A DNA stretch of 26,201 bases. It comes from a virus. The notes beneath the pieces are model-generated. The model did not search any database. It was not told the DNA's origin and saw only the letters and a program-made list of their open reading frames with translations. Each line of letters opens with the position of its first letter. Position 1 is the first letter of the stretch. The translations under genes were made by a program, and so were the position numbers. The DNA is taken from the IMG/VR virus record IMGVR_UViG_3300005532_000037, positions 1-26,201 of that record; one strand, given 5' to 3'. Below, in pieces: positions 5,576 to 22,431 of the stretch.

Positions 5576-6091
5576 ATGAGTCCGGGATTAAAGGATCAGG
5601 TGCTCAGCTGGCTCTATACGCTGCACGCCCATGATCAGAACGAAACGCAGGCTCTGCTGCGCAAGGCAACCGCCAAGGGCCTGGGCCTCGACCCGGAGAC
5701 TAACGTGAGCACGTTCCCCGGATCGACTGTCAATATCCTGACGGCGCCGCAGCCGGCGGCGGCCGCCGTGCCTGCACCTGGGCCGGCCCAGACGCCGGCA
5801 GCGGCCGTGACTCCCGCCGGAGCACCGGCGGCCGCGCCGGCGTCGGCTGGCTCCTGCCAGGTGGGCCAACTGATGACGCTGGGCCTGGTCGCCGCGATGC
5901 TGCTGATCGGGACGATACTGGGAGCCGCCGCGATTTCTTGGCTGTCGCGGCCCGCTTCTTTTCCTGGTCAGCCACCCGCACCGCTTATCCTTCCTGCGCC
6001 GGCGCCGCCCCAACCTACCCCCCCCGTTCCGCCGCCTGTCTTCAACGAGAAAGATTGGCGTCTCGTCCTTCCGGATGCACCGCCCAAGTGA
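5576..6091 (+). CDS. Hypothetical membrane protein, single transmembrane segment
   Basis: The start chosen is ATG 5576 because GGGGGA lies about 6 nt upstream; the frame is open further left, but without start signals and overlapping the previous gene. The product is 171 aa. It has an N-terminal helical domain (DQVLSWLYTLHAHDQNETQA), an Ala/Pro-rich linker (about 55-95) and one clear membrane helix (LMTLGLVAAMLLIGTILGAA, about 101-120). A Pro-rich tail ends in LVLPDAPPK. Function is unknown. Its position among small late proteins suggests a lysis or envelope accessory role. Confidence 0.6.
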   Translation: MSPGLKDQVLSWLYTLHAHDQNETQALLRKATAKGLGLDPETNVSTFPGSTVNILTAPQPAAAAVPAPGPAQTPAAAVTPAGAPAAAPASAGSCQVGQLMTLGLVAAMLLIGTILGAAAISWLSRPASFPGQPPAPLILPAPAPPQPTPPVPPPVFNEKDWRLVLPDAPPK

Positions 6092-6103
6092 AAGGAGACC
6101 GTT

Positions 6104-6580
6104 GTGTACCGCTTGTGCCTTGCCCTTTTGTGTCTTTGTGCGGCAAGTCCACCCAGTCGCGCCGACTGTCCCTGCGGCCCGGCCTGCAGCCAAGCGTGCC
6201 CAAAAGCTTGCGACTGCTTGGAGAAAGCCTGCCAGCAAGCCACGGCCCAGAACAAGGCCCTCCTGATCTTCGTGCGCCAGCCGGCCCAGGTAGTCGAAGG
6301 CTGCGTCAGTGTGCGCGTCGAAGTCTACCCCGGCCAGCAGCATCTTCCCGGTGTCATCATGGCCTTACCGGATGGCAAGGGCGGCCTGATCGAGGTCGCC
6401 CGCCGCGACAGTTATCCCACCGTGGAATGGCTGAAGATCCGTGTCCAGGAGCTGCGCAGCCAGTGGTGTAGGCCGGCCGATCTGTGCGGCGGCATCGGCT
6501 ACTTCGGTCCACGGGTGCGCCTCGGTATCTGGTGGAGGCGCCCCCATCGTGGTTGTACCTCACCAGGGCCCTGCCAGTGA
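6104..6580 (+). CDS. Secreted Cys-rich hypothetical protein
   Basis: This 158-aa protein starts at GTG 6104 with AAAGGAG about 7 nt upstream. An N-terminal signal peptide is evident (residues 1-20, LCLALLCLCAASPPSRA). A dense cysteine cluster follows (CPCGPACSQACPKACDCLEKAC begins at about residue 22, seven or more Cys in some 22 residues). The domain from about residue 45 to 115 alternates hydrophobic strands (ALLIFVRQPA, VSVRVEVYPG, GVIMALPDG). The exported location makes disulfides likely. No family is recognised. The stop codon overlaps a possible GTG start of the next gene. Confidence 0.6.
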   Translation: MYRLCLALLCLCAASPPSRADCPCGPACSQACPKACDCLEKACQQATAQNKALLIFVRQPAQVVEGCVSVRVEVYPGQQHLPGVIMALPDGKGGLIEVARRDSYPTVEWLKIRVQELRSQWCRPADLCGGIGYFGPRVRLGIWWRRPHRGCTSPGPCQ

Positions 6581-6831
6581 GCGACCAATCCAGCAGGGAT
6601 GCACAAGTGAAACTCTACCAGGAACCACCCAAGACGCGTGCCGAGTTGCGGCTGAACTACGCCCGCGCCGTGGCCAAGATCCGCCGCCAGCAACTGCAGC
6701 GCTATCGCGAAGCCTACCAGACCAACGACGTGACCCTCGCTGCCGTCGAGGAGGCGGAAATTGCCAAACTGCAAGCTGAGCTGCACGAGGCGATCTGCCA
6801 GCTGGATGTCGAAGAGGAGAGAGACGCATGA
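6577..6831 (+). CDS. Small coiled-coil protein
   Basis: The start chosen is GTG 6577, which overlaps the previous stop (GTGA); GTG 6607 with AGGG upstream is an alternative. The 84-aa product is almost wholly charged helix: residues about 22-80 (TRAELRLNYARAVAKIRRQQ and EAEIAKLQAELHEAICQ) have coiled-coil spacing. It overlaps the next ORF by four bases (ATGA), so the small genes are translationally coupled. Function is unknown. Pairing with the following tiny membrane protein hints at a spanin- or holin-regulator-like role, but this is speculative. Confidence 0.55.
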   Translation: MSDQSSRDAQVKLYQEPPKTRAELRLNYARAVAKIRRQQLQRYREAYQTNDVTLAAVEEAEIAKLQAELHEAICQLDVEEERDA

Positions 6832-6950
6832 GCAGTGTTCGGGCGCGGGCCCCGCTGGGGTGTCTGCTGTTGAGTGTGTTTGTCTCGGGTTGCGTCTTCG
6901 CCCTGGCGCTCATCGCGGCCGCCTGCTTGATCGTCGCTCACCTGCTCTAG
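6828..6950 (+). CDS. Tiny single-pass membrane protein
   Basis: A 40-aa ORF begins at ATG 6828, overlapping the upstream stop (ATGA), with AGGAG 9 nt before the start. Nearly all of it is hydrophobic (CLLLSVFVSGCVFALALIAA and onwards to HLL), with a short basic N-terminus (VRARA). It may be a lipoprotein-like or holin-like peptide; SGC resembles a degenerate lipobox. The good ribosome site and coupling support translation. Confidence 0.5.
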   Translation: MSSVRARAPLGCLLLSVFVSGCVFALALIAAACLIVAHLL

Positions 6951-14590: not shown

Positions 14591-15493
14591 ATGAAGGCGA
14601 CGGAACGGCAAAGCTGGCTGGCCGAACGCAAGGCGGGCCTGGGCAGCTCGGAGGCGGCCGCAGTGCTCGGGCTGGACCCCTACAAGACCGCGCTGGAAGT
14701 CGCCCTAGATAAGTGGGGCCTGCTGCCGGCACGCGACAGCGCGGCCCTGCGCTGGGGCCTCAAGCTCGAGGAAACCATCGCGGCGGCCTACACCGAGGAG
14801 ACCGGACTGCAGGCCGAGGCGCCGCCGGCGGCCATCCTCTGGCATCCGCAAGCGCCGTGGATGTTCGCCAGTCTAGACCGCGTCGTCGCCGGCCAGCGCA
14901 TCGTTGAGCTGAAGAACTCCCGCACCGGCGAGGGCTGGGGCCGGCCGGGCACCGATGAGATTCCCGAGCATTACGCCGTCCAGGTGCAGCACCAGCTTCA
15001 CGTCGGCCGGGCGCATGGGCTCGACGAGCGAGCCGATGTCGCCGTGCTCATCGGCGGCAGCGAGTTCCGCGTGTACTCGGTGAACTACCTGCCGCATTTC
15101 TGCGCGGCCCTGGAGGAGCAGCTCAAGTGGTTCTGGGAAAAGGTCCAGCGCAAGGACACCATCGGCTGGGAGTCCAGCAATCTGGAGTTGCTGCAGCTGC
15201 TCTACCATCCCCAGCCAGGGCAAGTCGTTTGGCTGGACGAACAGGGCGAAAAGCTCGTGGATGCCTACCAACAGCTGGGCCTCGACATCGCGGCGCTCGA
15301 GCTGCAGCGGCAAACGCTCAAGGCCCAGCTCATCGAGAAGATGGGCCACGCCTGCGAAGGCCATCTCAAAGATGGGAGATACATTCGCCGGCGCCAGATT
15401 ACCCGGCGCGAATACCGCGTTCCGGAGACGACCTACTACGACATGAGGATTCTAACCAAGGAGAAAGACCATGTCCGTCACCGTGCGAACTGA
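14591..15493 (+). CDS. YqaJ-family viral recombinase exonuclease
   Basis: This 300-aa protein starts at ATG 14591 with AGGAGG upstream. It shows the YqaJ/lambda-exonuclease motifs: GLGSSEAAAVLGLDPY (16-31), the acidic Glu60 in LRWGLKLEE, Asp96 in FASLDRV, and the E-x-K pair Glu106/Lys108 in IVELKN. The YAVQVQHQL motif (128-136) follows. This PD-(D/E)XK enzyme resects double-stranded ends to make 3' single strands for annealing. The C-terminal 80 residues are helical. The gene overlaps the start of recT by 23 bp, forming a two-component recombination system. Confidence 0.9.
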   Translation: MKATERQSWLAERKAGLGSSEAAAVLGLDPYKTALEVALDKWGLLPARDSAALRWGLKLEETIAAAYTEETGLQAEAPPAAILWHPQAPWMFASLDRVVAGQRIVELKNSRTGEGWGRPGTDEIPEHYAVQVQHQLHVGRAHGLDERADVAVLIGGSEFRVYSVNYLPHFCAALEEQLKWFWEKVQRKDTIGWESSNLELLQLLYHPQPGQVVWLDEQGEKLVDAYQQLGLDIAALELQRQTLKAQLIEKMGHACEGHLKDGRYIRRRQITRREYRVPETTYYDMRILTKEKDHVRHRAN

Positions 15494-16439
15494 CCCCGTG
15501 CAGACGCTGGAAAAGTTCCTGCTGGCCAAGGCCGACGAGTTCGGCCGGGCCATCCCGCGGCAACTGGCGCGCAGCCTGACGCCAGACCGCATGATACGGC
15601 TGGCGCTGACGGCCTGCCGCAAGAATCCGCAGCTGGCCGATTGCACCCAGGTCAGCCTCATCGCCTGCTTGATGCAGGCCTGCCAGCTCGGCCTGGAGCT
15701 GGACGACGTGCTGGGGCATGCCTACCTGGTGCCCTACCGCAACGGCAAGACGCGGCGGCTGGAGGCTCAGCTTATCATCGGCTACAAGGGCTTCCGGTCG
15801 CTGGCTTTTCGTTCGGGCCAGGTCAAGGCCTTTCCGGCCCACTGCGTCCATGCCGGCGACCACTTCAAATTCTGCCATGGCTCCAAGCCCTATCTCGACT
15901 TCGCGCCGGCGCTGAAGGGCCGCGGCGAGCCGATCGCCGTCTATGCCTCGGTGAGCCTGGCCAATGGCGGCTTTGACTTCGAGGTCCTCGGTTGGGAGGA
16001 AGTGCTGGCCTGCCAGGCTCGCTATGGCACGCTGCCGGATGGTCGCAAAAAGAATTCGCCCTGGTGGACGCATGTGGAAGCGATGGGCTGCAAGACGGCC
16101 GTGCGCCGCCTGGCCAAGCGCGTGCCGCTGACCGCGGACCTGGGCCGCGCTGCCAACCTCGATGAGTTGGCGGAGGAAGGACTGCCACAAGGACTACCCT
16201 TTGATCCAAAGTGGCTGGGCCAGGATGCCGTCAACGCCGAGGGCCGCGTCACGCAGCAACAGCTGCAAGAATTGCAGCTACTCTCGCAGATCCTGCAACC
16301 CGATGAGTTCCAGGCCCTGGTCGAACAGTATGGGGCGGAGCGGCCTGAGGAACTGATGGCAGAGCGGGCCGAGGAGCTCATCAGTCACCTGGAGGATCTA
16401 GGTGGTAAATCGGAGACGATGGAGGAGCCCCAGTCATGA
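15471..16439 (+). CDS. recT: RecT single-strand annealing protein
   Basis: This 322-aa protein starts at ATG 15471 with AAGGAG 7 nt upstream, inside the end of the yqaJ gene. Hallmarks are the helical N-terminus (RMIRLALTACRKNPQLADC), then SLIACLMQACQLGLELDD, LGHAYLVPYRNG and AQLIIGYKGFRSLAFRSGQ. Later come VYASVSLANGGFDFEVLGWE and PWWTHVEAMGCKTAVRRLAK. RecT coats single-stranded DNA and anneals it with the partner exonuclease. Its stop overlaps the next start (ATGA), coupling it to the Cas12-like protein. Confidence 0.93.
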   Translation: MSVTVRTDPVQTLEKFLLAKADEFGRAIPRQLARSLTPDRMIRLALTACRKNPQLADCTQVSLIACLMQACQLGLELDDVLGHAYLVPYRNGKTRRLEAQLIIGYKGFRSLAFRSGQVKAFPAHCVHAGDHFKFCHGSKPYLDFAPALKGRGEPIAVYASVSLANGGFDFEVLGWEEVLACQARYGTLPDGRKKNSPWWTHVEAMGCKTAVRRLAKRVPLTADLGRAANLDELAEEGLPQGLPFDPKWLGQDAVNAEGRVTQQQLQELQLLSQILQPDEFQALVEQYGAERPEELMAERAEELISHLEDLGGKSETMEEPQS

Positions 16440-17488
16440 GTGACTCGATAGTTCGCTGCACAACTCTCTCTGTCGCTTCCCCCGTGGAGGGTTCCTGGGA
16501 AGCACTTTGGCGCGATTTGCATGCTTGCTGGGCCCAGACTACGGCAGCCAGCAACTGGCTGATGACCGAGTTGGCCAAGGCTGATCACCAGCGGCTGCCC
16601 GGTGATGCCAAACTACCACCCATGCCGGCGACGTACTTTTACCCAAAGCTGACCCAACTCTTCCCCGATCTCGACACGCGCACCTGTGCCTCGCTGGAAC
16701 GCGCGGTGAAGCGCAAGTACAAAGCAGTCCTTTATCAAGTCCTCTGGCAACATGCGGCCAGCCTGCCGACGTATCGCTATCCGACGCCCTATCCGGTCCA
16801 TAACCAGGCTTGGCGCCCTTCTTGGGATCAGGGCAACCGGCCCCTGGTGAGCCTGCCACTGGGACGCGGTGCCGAGAAGCGCTGGCAGCTCCGACTCAAG
16901 GGCGGCCCGAACTTCGCCCGCCAGGTGGCACTCTTCCGCCAATTCGTGGAAGGTGCCGCCCTCAAGAGTGAAGCCAAAATCTACCGACGGGGTAACGCCC
17001 TGCTGGTTGGCCTGGTGGGTCGCTTTCCACCGCCCCTCTTGTCGGAGCGTACCAGGCTTATGAGAGTGCTCACCTCTTCGACCTGCCTATGGGTCGTCGA
17101 GATCGAGGGGCAGGAGCCGCGCTACTGGAACCACGATGACCTACGGCGCCTCTGCATCAGCCATCGCGCCTACCTGCAGCGTATCGCTGAGGACAGTAAG
17201 TATGAGTTGCGTCTACCTCCGGGCAAACTGCGGCACATTCGAGAGAAGCGGCAGGAGCGCTGTCAGAAGCACCAACGCCGTATCCATACCTCACTGCACC
17301 AGCTGACCGCCCAGCTGGTCGGCCTGGCGGAGCGACAAAAAGTGGCCAGGGTGATCTACACCGATCACGACAAGAGTTGGCTACCCCTGTTTCCCTGGTC
17401 CGAACTGCGGCGGCTGTTGGCTTATAAGCTCCAGGGACTGGGGATTACTTTTGGTGGAGGAGACGAGGACCCGAATGCTCACAATTGA
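16436..17488 (+). CDS. Miniature TnpB/Cas12-like protein, RuvC apparently inactive; CRISPR-associated
   Basis: This 350-aa protein overlaps the recT stop by ATGA and has GGAGGAG 8 nt upstream. The N-terminal half resembles TnpB/Cas12 recognition and wedge regions: WEALWRDLHACWAQTTAASN (21-40), then VSLPLG, then WQLRLKGGPNFARQVALFRQ (150-169). The C-terminal half has the bridge-like arginine helices (262-300) and the RuvC-II strand VARVIYTDHD (303-312). FPWSELRRLLAYKLQGLGI (319-337) is a strong TnpB/Cas12 signature. The catalytic Glu of RuvC-II is Thr309. No GxDxG-type RuvC-I Asp is seen (VLTSSTCLW instead). The zinc finger is missing, and the protein ends DEDPNAHN, resembling a RuvC-III motif with Asp345. 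It is followed at 211 bp by the repeat-spacer array. RNA-guided binding without cutting is inferred; a transposon TnpB relic is the alternative. Confidence 0.75.
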   Translation: MSDSIVRCTTLSVASPVEGSWEALWRDLHACWAQTTAASNWLMTELAKADHQRLPGDAKLPPMPATYFYPKLTQLFPDLDTRTCASLERAVKRKYKAVLYQVLWQHAASLPTYRYPTPYPVHNQAWRPSWDQGNRPLVSLPLGRGAEKRWQLRLKGGPNFARQVALFRQFVEGAALKSEAKIYRRGNALLVGLVGRFPPPLLSERTRLMRVLTSSTCLWVVEIEGQEPRYWNHDDLRRLCISHRAYLQRIAEDSKYELRLPPGKLRHIREKRQERCQKHQRRIHTSLHQLTAQLVGLAERQKVARVIYTDHDKSWLPLFPWSELRRLLAYKLQGLGITFGGGDEDPNAHN

Positions 17489-17699
17489 TTCAGACTATCC
17501 CAACGCGCCAAAGGTGTTCGACTTCAGTTTTTGCGCCCCATCGGGACAATAGAGGCCGCTCGCAAGGAATAAAGGCAATGGCGACAAACATTAGCGACCG
17601 CCACGCTAAGCGCGAATCACGGCCCTGGCGCTTGCCGCCAGGCACCGCTCGCGGAGGCCGCTGGAAATGCCTGGGATATTGGGCCTTATGGCCACGGCC
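17489..17699 (+). promoter_or_regulatory. Leader/structured region between the Cas12-like gene and the array
   Basis: This gap has no supported gene. It contains three short hairpins: TTAGCG/CGCTAA (17591-17609), CCTGGCG/CGCCAGG (17624-17642) and GGCC/GGCC (17682-17693). A 7-nt TCCCAAC (17498-17504) is complementary to GTTGGGA of the repeat, too short to prove a tracrRNA anti-repeat. No clear promoter is visible. It may be the CRISPR leader, a tracr-like RNA, or both. Confidence 0.45.
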
Positions 17700-18259
17700 C
17701 CAGGATCACTGGTTGGGACCAACAGGGTGATGCGGCAAGGTGCATTCCGGCCCGCACGAAGACTGGGGCGGACCCGCCCAGGATCACTGGTTGGGACCAA
17801 CAGGGTGATGCGGCGTCTGGAATCGCGCTCCTCACGCAACAGGGCTTCCGTACCAGGATCACTGGTTGGGACCAACAGGGTGATGCGGCAGGACCAAGGA
17901 GCCGCCAGCGATCGCCCTTATGGAGACCAGGATCACTGGTTGGGACCAACAGGGTGATGCGGCCACTTGAACTTTTGTCTGCTCATCCGCCTTCGTGGGA
18001 CCAGGATCACTGGTTGGGACCAACAGGGTGATGCGGCCTTATGGCGGCGGCCCTGCTTGGCTCGCGCCAGTTGTCCAGGATCACTGGTTGGGACCAACAG
18101 GGTGATGCGGCCTCAGCTAACGCCGCCGTGCTCGGATAACCCCCGAGCCCAGGATCACTGGTTGGGACCAACAGGGTGATGCGGCATCGTGTGTCTCCTT
18201 GAGCCATCAGGTATGGCCTGATCCAGGATCACTGGTTGGGACCAACAGGGTGATGCGGC
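17700..18259. CRISPR. CRISPR array: eight identical 37-bp repeats, seven unique spacers
   Basis: Repeats lie at 17700-17736, 17778-17814, 17853-17889, 17927-17963, 18001-18037, 18075-18111, 18149-18185 and 18223-18259. All are identical, beginning CCAGGATCACTGG and ending GGGTGATGCGGC. Each can fold by ATCAC/GTGAT and GTTG/CAAC around a GGAC loop. Spacers are 41, 38, 37, 37, 37, 37 and 37 bp and differ from one another. No integration genes (cas1, cas2, cas4) occur in the window; the only adjacent candidate effector is the Cas12-like protein upstream. No spacer was found by eye to match elsewhere in the window. The transcribed strand is not established. Confidence 0.95.
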
Positions 18260-18297: not shown

Positions 18298-19323
18298 ATG
18301 GCTGGTGACTGGATACCTATGCGCGTCTGGCTGCGCCGCGACCCGCGCGTCATTGCACTGGCTGACTATCTCGCGGGCTGCCGTAGCTTTATGAATTGGC
18401 TCACCGATCCCGTACAACGCACCTGTTCGAAGACCGCCTATGAGCATGTGGACACGAGCGTGACACTCAGCGTGACAATTGCGGGACTGCTGCAAGTCTG
18501 GGGCGTGGCGCGCGAGCAGGGATACGCCTCCGGATATGACCTCGTGCTCGACTGCGCCGGCCTCGGCAGCCTCGACGTGCTGGCCGAAGTGCCGTGCTTT
18601 GGCGAGGCGATGGAGAAAGTCGGCTGGGCGAAGGAGACTGACGATGGCAGAGTCGTTTTCCCTAAGTTCTTTCGCAACAACGTCCCCAATGAAGACCTGC
18701 GGAGGCGGCGCGATGCAATCCGTAAACAGCGCCAGCGACAGAAAGGCATGGGACAACAGCGTGACAAGCCCTGTGACAGTGAGCGTGACATGTCACAGCC
18801 CTGTCACGCTGAAATCCGCTCTAAAGGAAAGGAAAGGAAAGAAGAGAATACAAATACACCCTCCGTAGGTTCCCGACGCAAACAACGACCAACCGAAGAC
18901 GCAGGCTTTCTCCGCTTTTGGGATGCTTACCCCAGGAAGGTCGCCAAGCGGGCTGCCGCCGATGCCTGGCTCAAACTCAACCCGAATGCGGAGCTACTCG
19001 AGCGCATCCTGGCGGCTGTGGAGAAGCAGCGTCATAGCGACCAATGGACACGGGAGGGGGGACGTTTCATTCCCAATCCAGCCACCTGGCTGCGAGGCCA
19101 GCGCTGGGAAGACGATTTGATGGAGGCCGTGCATGGACGGAGCCAAGATCTGGGACCTCGTCCTGGCAGAGTCGAAGCGCCGCCTGGCAAGTATGCCAAC
19201 GTCGCCATCCGCATCGGGCCGGAAGGTCCTGACACTCAGATCCCAGGCCCAACGCCACTGGCTGAAGGACAAGCCCCGGGAAGTGGCGCTAGTGGAGAAC
19301 CACCTCGGCCGGGTAATTCGTGA
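18298..19323 (+). CDS. Phage replication initiator-like protein
   Basis: The start chosen is ATG 18298 with GGGAGG 6 nt upstream; the longer open frame runs back through the last CRISPR repeat and is artefactual. The product has 341 aa. The N-terminal 130 residues look like a replisome-organiser HTH domain (SVTIAGLLQVWGVAREQG, FGEAMEKVGWAKETDDGRVV, FPKFFRNN). A Lys/Arg-rich linker follows (about 134-200). The C-terminal domain has FLRFWDAYPRKVAKRAAADA and GGRFIPNPATWLRGQRWEDD (205-273), typical of DnaT/phage replication proteins. The gene contains iterons and an AT/purine-rich tract. Its end overlaps the helicase-loader gene by 191 bp. Confidence 0.75.
   Translation: MAGDWIPMRVWLRRDPRVIALADYLAGCRSFMNWLTDPVQRTCSKTAYEHVDTSVTLSVTIAGLLQVWGVAREQGYASGYDLVLDCAGLGSLDVLAEVPCFGEAMEKVGWAKETDDGRVVFPKFFRNNVPNEDLRRRRDAIRKQRQRQKGMGQQRDKPCDSERDMSQPCHAEIRSKGKERKEENTNTPSVGSRRKQRPTEDAGFLRFWDAYPRKVAKRAAADAWLKLNPNAELLERILAAVEKQRHSDQWTREGGRFIPNPATWLRGQRWEDDLMEAVHGRSQDLGPRPGRVEAPPGKYANVAIRIGPEGPDTQIPGPTPLAEGQAPGSGASGEPPRPGNS
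18457..18860. other. Candidate replication origin (iterons plus AT/purine-rich tract)
   Basis: The 9-mer AGCGTGACA occurs at 18457, 18469, 18758 and 18782, with its inverted form TGTCACGCT at 18802. TGTGACA (18772) and TGTCACA (18791) are related half-sites. The cluster at 18758-18810 is nearly symmetric. It is followed by four GGAAA-type repeats and AATACAAATACA (about 18822-18858), an unusually AT/purine-rich tract for this genome. Iterons inside the initiator gene next to an easily melted tract match the lambda ori layout. Confidence 0.6.
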
Positions 19324-19771
19324 TTGCGTGGATGGCAGCTTGCCCTGGCCGTTGGTCCTCATTGGCAAGCCGGGCACGGGCAAGACGTGTGCGGCCCTGT
19401 GCCTGCTCGACCACGCCGGCGGCCTGTACTTCACCGCCGCCGGCCTGGCCGGCAAAATCCTCCTGGCCTACAAGGGTGAACTCTACAACCCAGATAGCAA
19501 ACTCCGCGTATCCGCTGCGTCCCTCTGGGAGGAAATCGCCCGCACGACCTTGGTCGTCCTGGATGAACTCGGCGCACGCCAACGAGTCAGCGATCATGCC
19601 TACGAATGCGTTTATCGCGTCGTAGACGAACGATCGGGCCGTCCCCTGGTCGTTGGGTCGAATTTGAGTCTCGACGTGCTAGCGGGCCTTTATGACGACC
19701 GGCTAACGAGTCGCCTGGCAGCCGGCACCGTGCTGGAGCTGACCGGGCCAGATCGGAGGTTGCTGCGATGA
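19133..19771 (+). CDS. DnaC/IstB-type helicase loader ATPase
   Basis: This 212-aa AAA+ protein starts at ATG 19133 with GGAGG 6 nt upstream, so it overlaps the initiator gene by 191 bp in a different frame. Walker A is GKPGTGKT (78-85) and Walker B is LVVLDELG (140-147). A sensor-like GRPLVVGSNLSLDVL and an arginine-finger-like DDRLTSRLAAGTVLEL follow near the C-terminus. Such proteins load the replicative DnaB-type helicase at the phage origin. The stop overlaps the next gene by ATGA. Confidence 0.88.
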   Translation: MDGAKIWDLVLAESKRRLASMPTSPSASGRKVLTLRSQAQRHWLKDKPREVALVENHLGRVIRDCVDGSLPWPLVLIGKPGTGKTCAALCLLDHAGGLYFTAAGLAGKILLAYKGELYNPDSKLRVSAASLWEEIARTTLVVLDELGARQRVSDHAYECVYRVVDERSGRPLVVGSNLSLDVLAGLYDDRLTSRLAAGTVLELTGPDRRLLR

Positions 19772-20001: not shown

Positions 20002-20032
20002 GATCTGGGGGACTACAGGGAGGTAGATGGAA

Positions 20033-20902
20033 ATGCTTGACAAGAAAATCGTCGTGGGCTTTTCCGGCGGCATCGACAGTCAGGCCGTCGCGCTGTGGGC
20101 ACGCCAAACCTTCCCGCCGGAGGACATCCTTCTCCTCAACAGCGACGCGGGCGGTAACGAGCATCCGCTGACTGAGGGCTTCGTCCGCTGGTACTCCGCT
20201 CACGTCTTTCCCGTGATCACCGTCCGCGCCCTGGTCAAGGATCTGGGCAACGTGGGCACACACGAAGGCGCCACGCGCGAGCGACGGCTCACGTTGGGCG
20301 AAGAGGAGCCGCTGACCTTCGACAAACTCGCTTTCGTGAAGGGAAGATTCCCTTCACGAAAGGCCCAATTCTGCACGGAGTACCTGAAGCTGGCGCCGCA
20401 AAAGCGCTGGCTAGATGAGCATCTGACCGCCAAGGGGATTCGCTATGCTCGCTACATCGGCGTCCGTGCCGACGAGTCCCGAAATCGCGCCAGCTGTCCG
20501 GAGCAGGAATTCGATCGCTACTTCCACTGCATGCTCTATCGGCCCCTCTTCCGTTGGACCAAGCAGCAATGTTTCGATTACGTCCTGGCCGCCGGCGAGG
20601 AAATCAATCCTCTCTACAAGTTGGGTTTTAACCGGGTCGGCTGCGCGCCGTGCATCAACTCCAGTAAGGCCGACATCCGCAATTGGGTGGCCCGTTTCCC
20701 CGAGATGATCGACAAGGTGCGACGCTGGGAGCAGTCGGTCGGCCGCACATTTTTTGCGCCGATGGTGCCGGGCAAGGACATCAATTGGATTGATGAAGTC
20801 GTGGCCTGGTCGAAGACGGAGCGGGGTGGCCAGCAATACAGCCTGCCGTTCATCGAAGCGGAGGCTCACACCTGCGTGAGCAAATATGGGTTGTGTGAAT
20901 AG
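20033..20902 (+). CDS. PAPS reductase/PP-loop family protein
   Basis: The start chosen is ATG 20033, with GGGAGG 9 nt upstream; ATG 20027 is only 3 nt from that site. The 289-aa protein has the PP-loop KIVVGFSGGIDSQAV (SGGIDS 11-16) that binds ATP or PAPS alpha-phosphates, then LLLNSDAGGNEHP. Further motifs are QFCTEYLKLAPQKRW, YIGVRADESRNRA and GFNRVGCAPCINSS. The CAPC pair and the FCTEYLK Cys recall the iron-sulfur or zinc cysteines of DndC-like phage proteins. The role could be sulfur transfer or nucleotide modification; no DndA/B/D/E genes are present. A perfect 15-bp inverted repeat lies inside the coding sequence. Confidence 0.82.
   Translation: MLDKKIVVGFSGGIDSQAVALWARQTFPPEDILLLNSDAGGNEHPLTEGFVRWYSAHVFPVITVRALVKDLGNVGTHEGATRERRLTLGEEEPLTFDKLAFVKGRFPSRKAQFCTEYLKLAPQKRWLDEHLTAKGIRYARYIGVRADESRNRASCPEQEFDRYFHCMLYRPLFRWTKQQCFDYVLAAGEEINPLYKLGFNRVGCAPCINSSKADIRNWVARFPEMIDKVRRWEQSVGRTFFAPMVPGKDINWIDEVVAWSKTERGGQQYSLPFIEAEAHTCVSKYGLCE
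20331..20362. repeat. Perfect 15-bp inverted repeat inside the PAPS reductase-like gene
   Basis: CTTTCGTGAAGGGAA (20331-20345) and its exact complement TTCCCTTCACGAAAG (20348-20362) flank a central GA. The sequence encodes AFVKGRFPSRKA in frame. An exact 30-bp palindrome in coding DNA is unexpected and may be a protein-binding site, a structured mRNA element or an inserted sequence. Confidence 0.8.
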
Positions 20903-20909
20903 GGAGACG

Positions 20910-20966
20910 ATGATGGCCAATTCCCTCCCGAGAAACGCGAACACGAACAAGGAGTCCTCAGAATGA
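20910..20966 (+). CDS. Possible 18-aa leader peptide
   Basis: ATG 20910, preceded by GGGAG, opens an 18-codon frame whose stop overlaps the next gene's ATG (ATGA at 20963). The peptide (MMANSLPRNANTNKESSE) has no recognisable feature. It may only serve translational coupling, or may not be translated. Confidence 0.25.
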   Translation: MMANSLPRNANTNKESSE

Positions 20967-21484
20967 ATCTTCAACCTCTCGATATTGTTGACGATCGATC
21001 TGCCTTCCAGCGCTGGCTTGATGGAGATGGTCCGAAGGCCAAACCGTCTTACGTTTATGTCGCCTCCAGCTGGCGCAATCCCTTGCAGCAAGGCATCGTC
21101 GCGGCCCTGCGCTCGGTCGGCTTGCAGGTTTACGACTTCCGCGCGCCGGTCCCGGGCAACGACGGTTTTCGCTGGTCGAAAATCGACCCGCAATGGCTGG
21201 GCTGGACGCCGCGGGATTGGCAACAAGCCCTCTCTCACCCCATTGCCAAGCGCGGGTTCCATCATGACAAGGCCGCCCTCGGCCGCGCTGATTGTGGCGT
21301 GCTCGTATTGCCTTGTGGCCGATCGGCGCATCTAGAGGCTGGTTACCTGGCCGGCTTCGGTAAACCAGTCTTCACGGTTGCCTTTGATCATGTTGAACCC
21401 GAACTGATGGCGTTGTTGCTCGGTCCTCCCAGGAATATCTGCACGACGATGAACGAGCTTTTTGACCGCCTCGGGGTGGAGTGA
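20963..21484 (+). CDS. Nucleoside 2-deoxyribosyltransferase-like protein
   Basis: This 173-aa protein starts at ATG 20963 with AAGGAG upstream. It has the Rossmann-like NDT pattern: YVYVASSWRNPLQQGIVAAL (30-49), GLQVYDFR, a middle HHDKAALGRADCGVLVLPCG, and SAHLEAGYLAGFGKPVFTVA, where Glu125 in HLEAGY is the expected catalytic glutamate. These enzymes transfer deoxyribose between bases or hydrolyse nucleosides and are used by phages in nucleotide salvage or modified-base synthesis. It lies between PP-loop and DUF5131 genes, and one coordinated pathway is possible. Confidence 0.75.
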   Translation: MNLQPLDIVDDRSAFQRWLDGDGPKAKPSYVYVASSWRNPLQQGIVAALRSVGLQVYDFRAPVPGNDGFRWSKIDPQWLGWTPRDWQQALSHPIAKRGFHHDKAALGRADCGVLVLPCGRSAHLEAGYLAGFGKPVFTVAFDHVEPELMALLLGPPRNICTTMNELFDRLGVE

Positions 21485-21486
21485 CC

Positions 21487-22431
21487 ATGGCCGCTACGAA
21501 GATCGAATGGACGGATGAGACGTGGAACCCGCTCCGGGCGCGCCACCGCCAGACCGGCAAGGTAGGCCACTACTGCGAGATGGTTTCCCCTGGCTGCGCC
21601 CACTGTTACGCCTCGGCGTTGCAGCGGCGCTTCGGGCTGCCCTCCTACGGCGGCCCGGTCGGTCGGGAAGGGCGGCGGCAAGACCTGGAGCTGTTCCTGG
21701 ACAAACAGGTGCTGAAACAGCCCTTGCACTGGAAGAAGCCGCGCCGGGTGTTCGTCTGTTCGATGACGGACCTCTTCGGCGCTTGGGTTTCGGACGACGA
21801 CATTGATGACGTGTTCCGGGCGATGTGGAAAAGCCCGCAGCACCAGTTCCAGGTGCTGACCAAGCGGGCCGACCGCCTACACGCATATTGCTCGAAGCGC
21901 TGGGGGCGATTCGGCGGTGCGGAGTTCCAGCCCGCTCCCAACGTCTGGCTCGGCGTCTCCGTCGAGGACCAGGCCCGGGCAGACGAGAGGATTCCACTAC
22001 TGCTCCAGACGCCGGCGGCGGTGCGGTTCCTCAGTTGCGAGCCCTTGATTGCCCCTGTAGAGCTGGACATCTCCCGATGGGGAGGATGCTACCACGATGG
22101 CTACCGTGGTAGGGACCACGAAGCGGATCATGGGGAGTGTGCTTGCCACCTCGATTGGTGCATTATTGGCGGCGAGAGCGGACCTGATGCTAGGCCCTGC
22201 GATCTGACCTGGGTGCGGTCGCTGGTCGAGCAGTGCAAAGCCGCCGGCGTGGCCTGTTTCGTAAAGCAGCTCGGGGCCAACATCACCGGCTTCACCGACT
22301 CCAAAGGACTCAGTCACGATTTCATCGCCAAGGCCCTCGGCGCCACCTACCGCCTCCGCGACCCCAAGGGCGGTAATCCAGCGGAATGGCCGCAGGATCT
22401 GCAAATACGAGAGTTTCCCAAGGAGAAATGA
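21487..22431 (+). CDS. DUF5131 (phage Gp37/Gp68 family) protein
   Basis: The start chosen is ATG 21487 because GGAG lies 5 nt upstream; GTG 21481 overlaps it. The 314-aa protein opens with KIEWTDETWNPLRARH, then MVSPGCAHCYASALQRRFGL, whose cysteines (C30, C37, C40) recall a radical-SAM-like iron-sulfur site. Family-typical motifs follow: RRVFVCSMTDLFGAWVSDDD, HQFQVLTKRADRL, NVWLGVSVEDQARADERIP, RFLSCEPLIAPVEL, IIGGESGPDARP and CFVKQLGAN. The biochemical role of DUF5131 is poorly defined. The gene is common in temperate phages and lies beside other nucleotide-related genes here. Confidence 0.88.
   Translation: MAATKIEWTDETWNPLRARHRQTGKVGHYCEMVSPGCAHCYASALQRRFGLPSYGGPVGREGRRQDLELFLDKQVLKQPLHWKKPRRVFVCSMTDLFGAWVSDDDIDDVFRAMWKSPQHQFQVLTKRADRLHAYCSKRWGRFGGAEFQPAPNVWLGVSVEDQARADERIPLLLQTPAAVRFLSCEPLIAPVELDISRWGGCYHDGYRGRDHEADHGECACHLDWCIIGGESGPDARPCDLTWVRSLVEQCKAAGVACFVKQLGANITGFTDSKGLSHDFIAKALGATYRLRDPKGGNPAEWPQDLQIREFPKEK

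Follow-up and report, generated by a model that had tools for sequence, protein, structure and literature searches.

Two copies of Cas12f act together, as a homodimer, on a single guide RNA, and its nuclease-dead relative dCas12f has a sigma factor as its partner. Nuclease-dead Cas12 effectors are already known in the form of Cas12m, Cas12k, dCas12f and CasMu-V (PMC10910872), together with the TnpB-derived TldR, a TnpB-like nuclease-dead repressor (PMC13418256). Cas12m variants whose site reads D-E-D, H-D-D or N-D-D bind double-stranded DNA (dsDNA) without cutting it and interfere by binding (PMC11013384), and landfill phages encode effectors of 300-399 amino acids (aa) that have weak or absent RuvC motifs and no assigned function (PMC12607003). 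Here, we describe a related system on a 26,201-nucleotide (nt) stretch of viral DNA (positions 1 to 26,201 of IMG/VR record IMGVR_UViG_3300005532_000037; the whole stretch analysed is called the window below), in which the gene of a 350-aa protein, P0001 (16436..17488, plus strand), is followed by an array of clustered regularly interspaced short palindromic repeats (CRISPR). Homology, profile and model evidence suggest that P0001 is a nuclease-dead effector derived from Cas12f. What is new is a defined, three-member, phage-borne and array-associated branch of Cas12f in which the zinc finger and RuvC-III are lost family-wide. This family may overlap the landfill effectors of PMC12607003, which, compared by description, are likewise phage-encoded, tiny, located near CRISPR arrays and degenerate in RuvC.

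Relationship of P0001 to Cas12f

Two homologues of P0001 were found in other IMG/VR records. The closer one, L141 (IMGVR_UViG_3300036792_000384, open reading frame (ORF) 5722-6900, 392 aa), is 39% identical to P0001 over 335 aa (E 2e-69), and the other, L143 (IMGVR_UViG_3300036045_000394, ORF 1632-2912, 426 aa), reaches 25% identity (E 2e-19). Exact-peptide scans with full-length P0001 returned no other homologue from viral or genome contigs, whereas a 65-aa N-terminal query succeeded. In a tree, the three proteins grouped together with full support, on a long branch of uncertain attachment to the Cas12f tree.

Kinship with Cas12f was supported by four tests that are independent of any structure model. 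PADLOC reported a Cas12f match for L141 (E 2.3e-13) and for P0001 (E 1.6e-5). The family profile aligned with a profile of nine phage Cas12f proteins over 332 columns (E 2.6e-11), covering P0001 residues 7-339 and stopping just short of the zinc finger. Searched against PDB sequences, it matched Cas12f chains alone below E 0.02. In a blind scan of 392 Planctomycetota genomes, its single match (L144, E 1.9e-6) was an intact Cas12f: its sequence contains GVDLG, TEDL and NADYNAALNI as well as a zinc finger, and a ten-repeat array adjoins its gene. A hit at E 6e-4 (L145), which sets the noise level for comparison, was rejected as an ABC-F ATPase, and no true match came from 301 Chloroflexota or 398 Pseudomonadota genomes. 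Judged by these comparisons, the family is a divergent branch of Cas12f that is predicted to be nuclease-dead. In the L144 locus (Cas12f and array at 1003-2235 and 211-858), the 36-nt repeat starts with GTTG and ends with CAAC, as in L143.

Structure prediction and superposition, named as a check in the original prediction, were carried out with AlphaFold2 (AF2) on an alignment in which twelve Cas12f/TnpB proteins accompanied the three family members. The resulting model (predicted local distance difference test (pLDDT) 85.2, predicted template modelling score (pTM) 0.65) shows that the P0001 sequence is compatible with a Cas12f fold; a single-sequence model (pLDDT 41) was discarded. The best solved match was AsCas12f (Foldseek E 5e-19, Z 24.8, root-mean-square deviation (rmsd) 7.5 over 332 residues), a fit that is not independent proof of homology because Cas12f rows were part of the alignment. 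Further matches were nuclease-deactivated dCas12f (PDB 9n9c/9n9m; Z 22.0, rmsd 7.1 over 324, model residues 1-342 against chain residues 2-365), Cas12k (Z 18) and Cas12m (Z 14.1). P0001 thus resembles Cas12f1 (type V-F/V-U3; AsCas12f, OsCas12f) in its fold over residues 3-346, in profile homology that extends over WED, REC and RuvC-I/II, and in the adjoining CRISPR array. In contrast, the intact D-E-D site, the TNB zinc finger and the RuvC-III helix of Cas12f1, and a trans-activating CRISPR RNA (tracrRNA) such as Cas12f1 needs, were not found for P0001. Like P0001, the 365-aa dCas12f is nuclease-dead, and it ends at the structural end point of P0001, before the zinc finger; however, the two share 13% identity in the structural alignment and the P0001 gene is phage-borne.

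The RuvC site and the C-terminal end

The original prediction read the segment VARVIYTDHD as RuvC-II, with Thr309 in place of the catalytic Glu. Indeed, profile-profile alignment set Thr309 (17360-17362) opposite the catalytic Glu of the nine phage Cas12f proteins, and the RuvC-II strand (residues 303-310, 17342..17365) appeared in the model at residues 303-309. Only the start had to be corrected, as the segment comprises residues 303-312 (nt 17342-17371) and begins at 17342, one codon ahead of the 17345 first given. The claim that VLTSSTCLW (residues 211-219) lacks the RuvC-I Asp was also confirmed: within the RuvC-I strand pair (residues 207-223, 17054..17104; AF2 strands 207-213 and 219-223), the profile register places Leu212 at the catalytic Asp position, and residues 205 to 221 contain neither D nor E. 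The RuvC helix FPWSELRRLLAYKL (residues 321-334, 17396..17437) was recovered in the model, and its FPW is common to all three family members. The zinc finger is absent, as proposed. The six cysteines of P0001 are scattered and form no CxxC, and the Cas12f1-like_TNB domain (PF07282) was undetected in P0001, L141 and L143, whereas in L119, an intact phage Cas12f, it scores E 9e-26.

The C-terminal tail DEDPNAHN (residues 343-350, 17462..17485) was suggested to contain a RuvC-III motif. The end of the protein, GGGDEDPNAHN, is abrupt as originally described, and the D-x-N-A letters are present; in the model, DEDPNAHN follows directly after the last strand. Its reading as RuvC-III is nevertheless unsupported, because D345 is not conserved and the pLDDT of residues 343-350 lies below 50; as a RuvC-III remnant, the tail is possible but unproven. 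Reading on in the same frame past the stop gave 27 codons without a recognisable motif and no sign of a frameshift or readthrough into a lost RuvC-III.

Conservation of Thr309 and Asp345 was not observed among the homologues. L141 and L143 both have Asp at the RuvC-II position, and D345 aligns with Asn in L141 (KENSNAP; N-x-N-A), while L143 has no such motif. At the RuvC-I position, the Leu of P0001 is matched by Arg in L141; in L143, whose register is less certain here, the residue is likewise not an acid. Both relatives carry an Asp roughly two positions later, and P0001 has none. None of the three proteins has the RuvC-III helix, and L141 and L143 also lack the C-terminal zinc finger. From sequence, the RuvC site is intact in no family member and most fully lost in P0001, and zinc finger and RuvC-III are missing throughout the family rather than through a private deletion. 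Private to P0001 is the missing N-terminal CxxC...CxxC ribbon, which is present in L141 (5722-5840) and L143 (1632-1770). The idea of a binding-only effector reduced by deletion therefore stands in its first part, in that the nuclease site is lost and P0001 probably binds only, and needs revision in its second. Binding only is the best-supported reading because Cas12f homology spans residues 7-339, none of the three members has an intact triad or a C-terminal zinc finger, and arrays adjoin the genes. A site as incomplete as that of the family is unlikely to cut, since the D-E-D, H-D-D and N-D-D sites of Cas12m already fail on dsDNA.

The CRISPR array and the role of the effector

The array (17700..18259, plus strand) comprises eight identical 37-nt repeats, CCAGGATCACTGGTTGGGACCAACAGGGTGATGCGGC, and seven unique spacers (41, 38 and five times 37 nt). 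It is separated from the effector gene by a non-coding gap of 211 nt (17489..17699, plus strand), the leader or, if one exists, the place of a tracrRNA. The repeat hairpin (-12.8 kcal/mol, z -1.6) is modestly above shuffles. In each of the three loci, whose phage backgrounds differ, a repeat array lies 3' of the effector gene. Downstream of the L143 gene, the array is regular, with five full copies of the 36-nt repeat GTTGCATCGACCGGCGAAACGAGGGCCGTGCGCAAC and spacers of 29-30 nt; its spacer 5 is identical to spacer 1 and its last repeat is shortened (L143:3140-3490). The L141 gene sits among structural genes of the opposite strand and is then followed by its repeat array. On the 3' side of these array-like repeats, at L141:7330-7870, we noted a core, C(TCC/TTC/CTC/TC)GG, that recurs in about 20 short units at intervals of 17-51 nt; compared with the rest of the locus, the density of the fuller motif GCSC(TYC)GG is raised about 50-fold there. 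This region resembles an array that keeps only the 3' end of the repeat, and it folds no better than shuffles. Searches of the three phage records (window, L141 and L143, the last being a fragment) gave no match to Cas1, to sigma-70 region 2 (Sigma70_r2) or to an rve-type transposase.

We propose, with a probability of about two in three, that P0001 is a phage-encoded, nuclease-dead type V effector of Cas12f (V-F/V-U3) stock that acts as a binding roadblock guided by CRISPR RNA (crRNA). According to this model, a Cas12f ancestor would have lost three elements: the RuvC triad, the TNB zinc finger at the C-terminus and the RuvC-III segment. The effector would load crRNAs from the adjoining array, bind matching dsDNA beside a protospacer-adjacent motif, open an R-loop and remain in place. 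Bound in this way, it would block transcription or replication of the target as a natural CRISPR interference roadblock, by analogy with Cas12m. Cas12m likewise combines a dead RuvC with a crRNA array and a location on mobile elements, roadblock activity being presumed for P0001. Unlike P0001, with its 350 aa, Thr at RuvC-II and model match of Z 14.1, it has about 600 aa, a zinc finger and an H/N/D-D-D type site (PMC11013384). The targets would most likely be competing mobile elements and less likely host genes; in our judgement, such competition is likelier than control of one host gene because the spacers are seven different ones and the system lies on a phage. Whether the system forms a separate phage CRISPR lineage, that is, a minimal weapon with several spacers that counters rival mobile elements by binding only, built on a Cas12f without zinc finger and RuvC-III and without adaptation genes, is a proposal for which we see even odds.

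Several points weigh against the roadblock model. P0001 alone scored weakly against a Cas12f profile of our own (E 0.2) and, with a profile of As-type Cas12f alone, not above shuffles; after L144 had been added, all three family members scored above 3000 shuffles, P0001 at E 0.2. Cas12f uses a tracrRNA, and no anti-repeat that beats shuffles was found in the effector-array gap of the window; the L143 candidate is weak, with 11 of 200 shuffles as good. Convincing spacer targets were found neither in the phage itself, where no window spacer matched, nor in INPHARED, PLSDB or the fetched loci, and for this reason the purpose of the system is a guess. Finally, the known family has three members, one of them at 25% identity, and the structure model drew on Cas12f rows.

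Alternatively, the dead effector could be an RNA-guided regulator that represses, or with a partner activates, host or prophage promoters, similar to TldR and dCas12f-sigma. We consider this possible though rather unlikely. TldRs, too, occur on phages and are RuvC-dead and RNA-guided, and those encoded by phages silence host flagellin (PMC13418256); in addition, the solved dCas12f shares length and C-terminal end with P0001. However, TldR is TnpB-derived and has a guide RNA cassette beside its gene and no CRISPR array, whereas P0001 is accompanied by eight repeats and seven different spacers. Moreover, none of these spacers matches the phage's own genome, and the three phage records lack the sigma-70 region 2 domain.

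That P0001 is a divergent yet active nuclease, with the displaced acids D310, D343, E344 and D345 forming a working site, is highly improbable. Acids near RuvC-I and at RuvC-II are kept in L141 and L143, and the D-x-N-A of the tail has a chance of about 4e-4 in eight residues of P0001 composition, calculated for a motif picked after the fact. Residues 205 to 221 are nonetheless free of acids, Thr occupies the RuvC-II position, the RuvC-III helix is absent from every member and the tail is modelled at a pLDDT below 50. Just as improbable is a decaying gene, a functionless Cas12f relic beside a fossil array, as which the loss of the catalytic residues and of two zinc-binding elements and the lack of spacer targets might be read. 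This is countered by an intact 350-aa ORF that is coupled to recT and has a ribosome site and coding-type composition, by 39% identity to L141 across 335 aa free of frameshifts, by the identity of all eight repeats and by a loss that is common to diverged relatives. Least probable is that P0001 provides RNA-guided targeting for transposition or integration, as in type V-K CRISPR-associated transposons with Cas12k or in CasMu-V, which also have an inactive Cas12, in CasMu-V through loss of the RuvC-III motif (PMC10910872): the structural matches include Cas12k (Z 18) and a DnaC/IstB-like ATPase lies nearby (19133-19771), but the known systems are transposase-coupled, the three phage records contain no rve-type transposase, PHROGs identifies the ATPase as a DnaC-like helicase loader and the window phage encodes a tyrosine integrase.

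Phage context and significance

The window is part of a tailed-phage genome and is 99.99-100% identical to IMG/VR record IMGVR_UViG_3300005607_000005, which bears a 110-bp direct terminal repeat; this repeat suggests a complete phage genome of about 47.4 kb. The genes are arranged in the order YqaJ, RecT, effector, CRISPR array, replication-initiation protein and DnaC-like loader. The YqaJ-type exonuclease (14591..15493, plus strand; PF09588, E 1e-28) precedes the RecT recombinase (15471..16439, plus strand; PF03837, E 8e-39), whose gene overlaps the effector start, the recT stop and the P0001 ATG being shared in ATGA, with GGAGG upstream. YqaJ and RecT also adjoin the homologous system in L143, where the array is followed by YqaJ, a RecT-like gene and replication genes (YqaJ by search match, the others read from ORFs). 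No effector match was found in terminase relatives of the window phage (L089-L117, several of them fragments). In one of these, L112, a candidate array was rejected as a coding-type minisatellite; positions 1897-2680 hold in-frame tandem repeats of mostly 69 bp, and the ORF reads (GVELMKLISLSRDF...)n. Elsewhere in the window, a PAPS-reductase-like protein, a nucleoside deoxyribosyltransferase and a DUF5131 protein are encoded in a row (20027-22431); the best relatives of the last are spread over many phyla and so give no pointer to the host. In another phage ORF (3377-4735), read by eye, a trypsin-like protease segment is fused to collagen-like G-x-y repeats.

Our analysis adds a phage-borne, predicted nuclease-dead Cas12 lineage with three diverged members in which the C-terminal RuvC part is gone. 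This lineage lets one ask how far Cas12 can be reduced and still bind DNA under RNA guidance, and what a phage gains from binding without cutting. Its 350 aa also make P0001 a candidate programmable DNA-binding protein of very small size.
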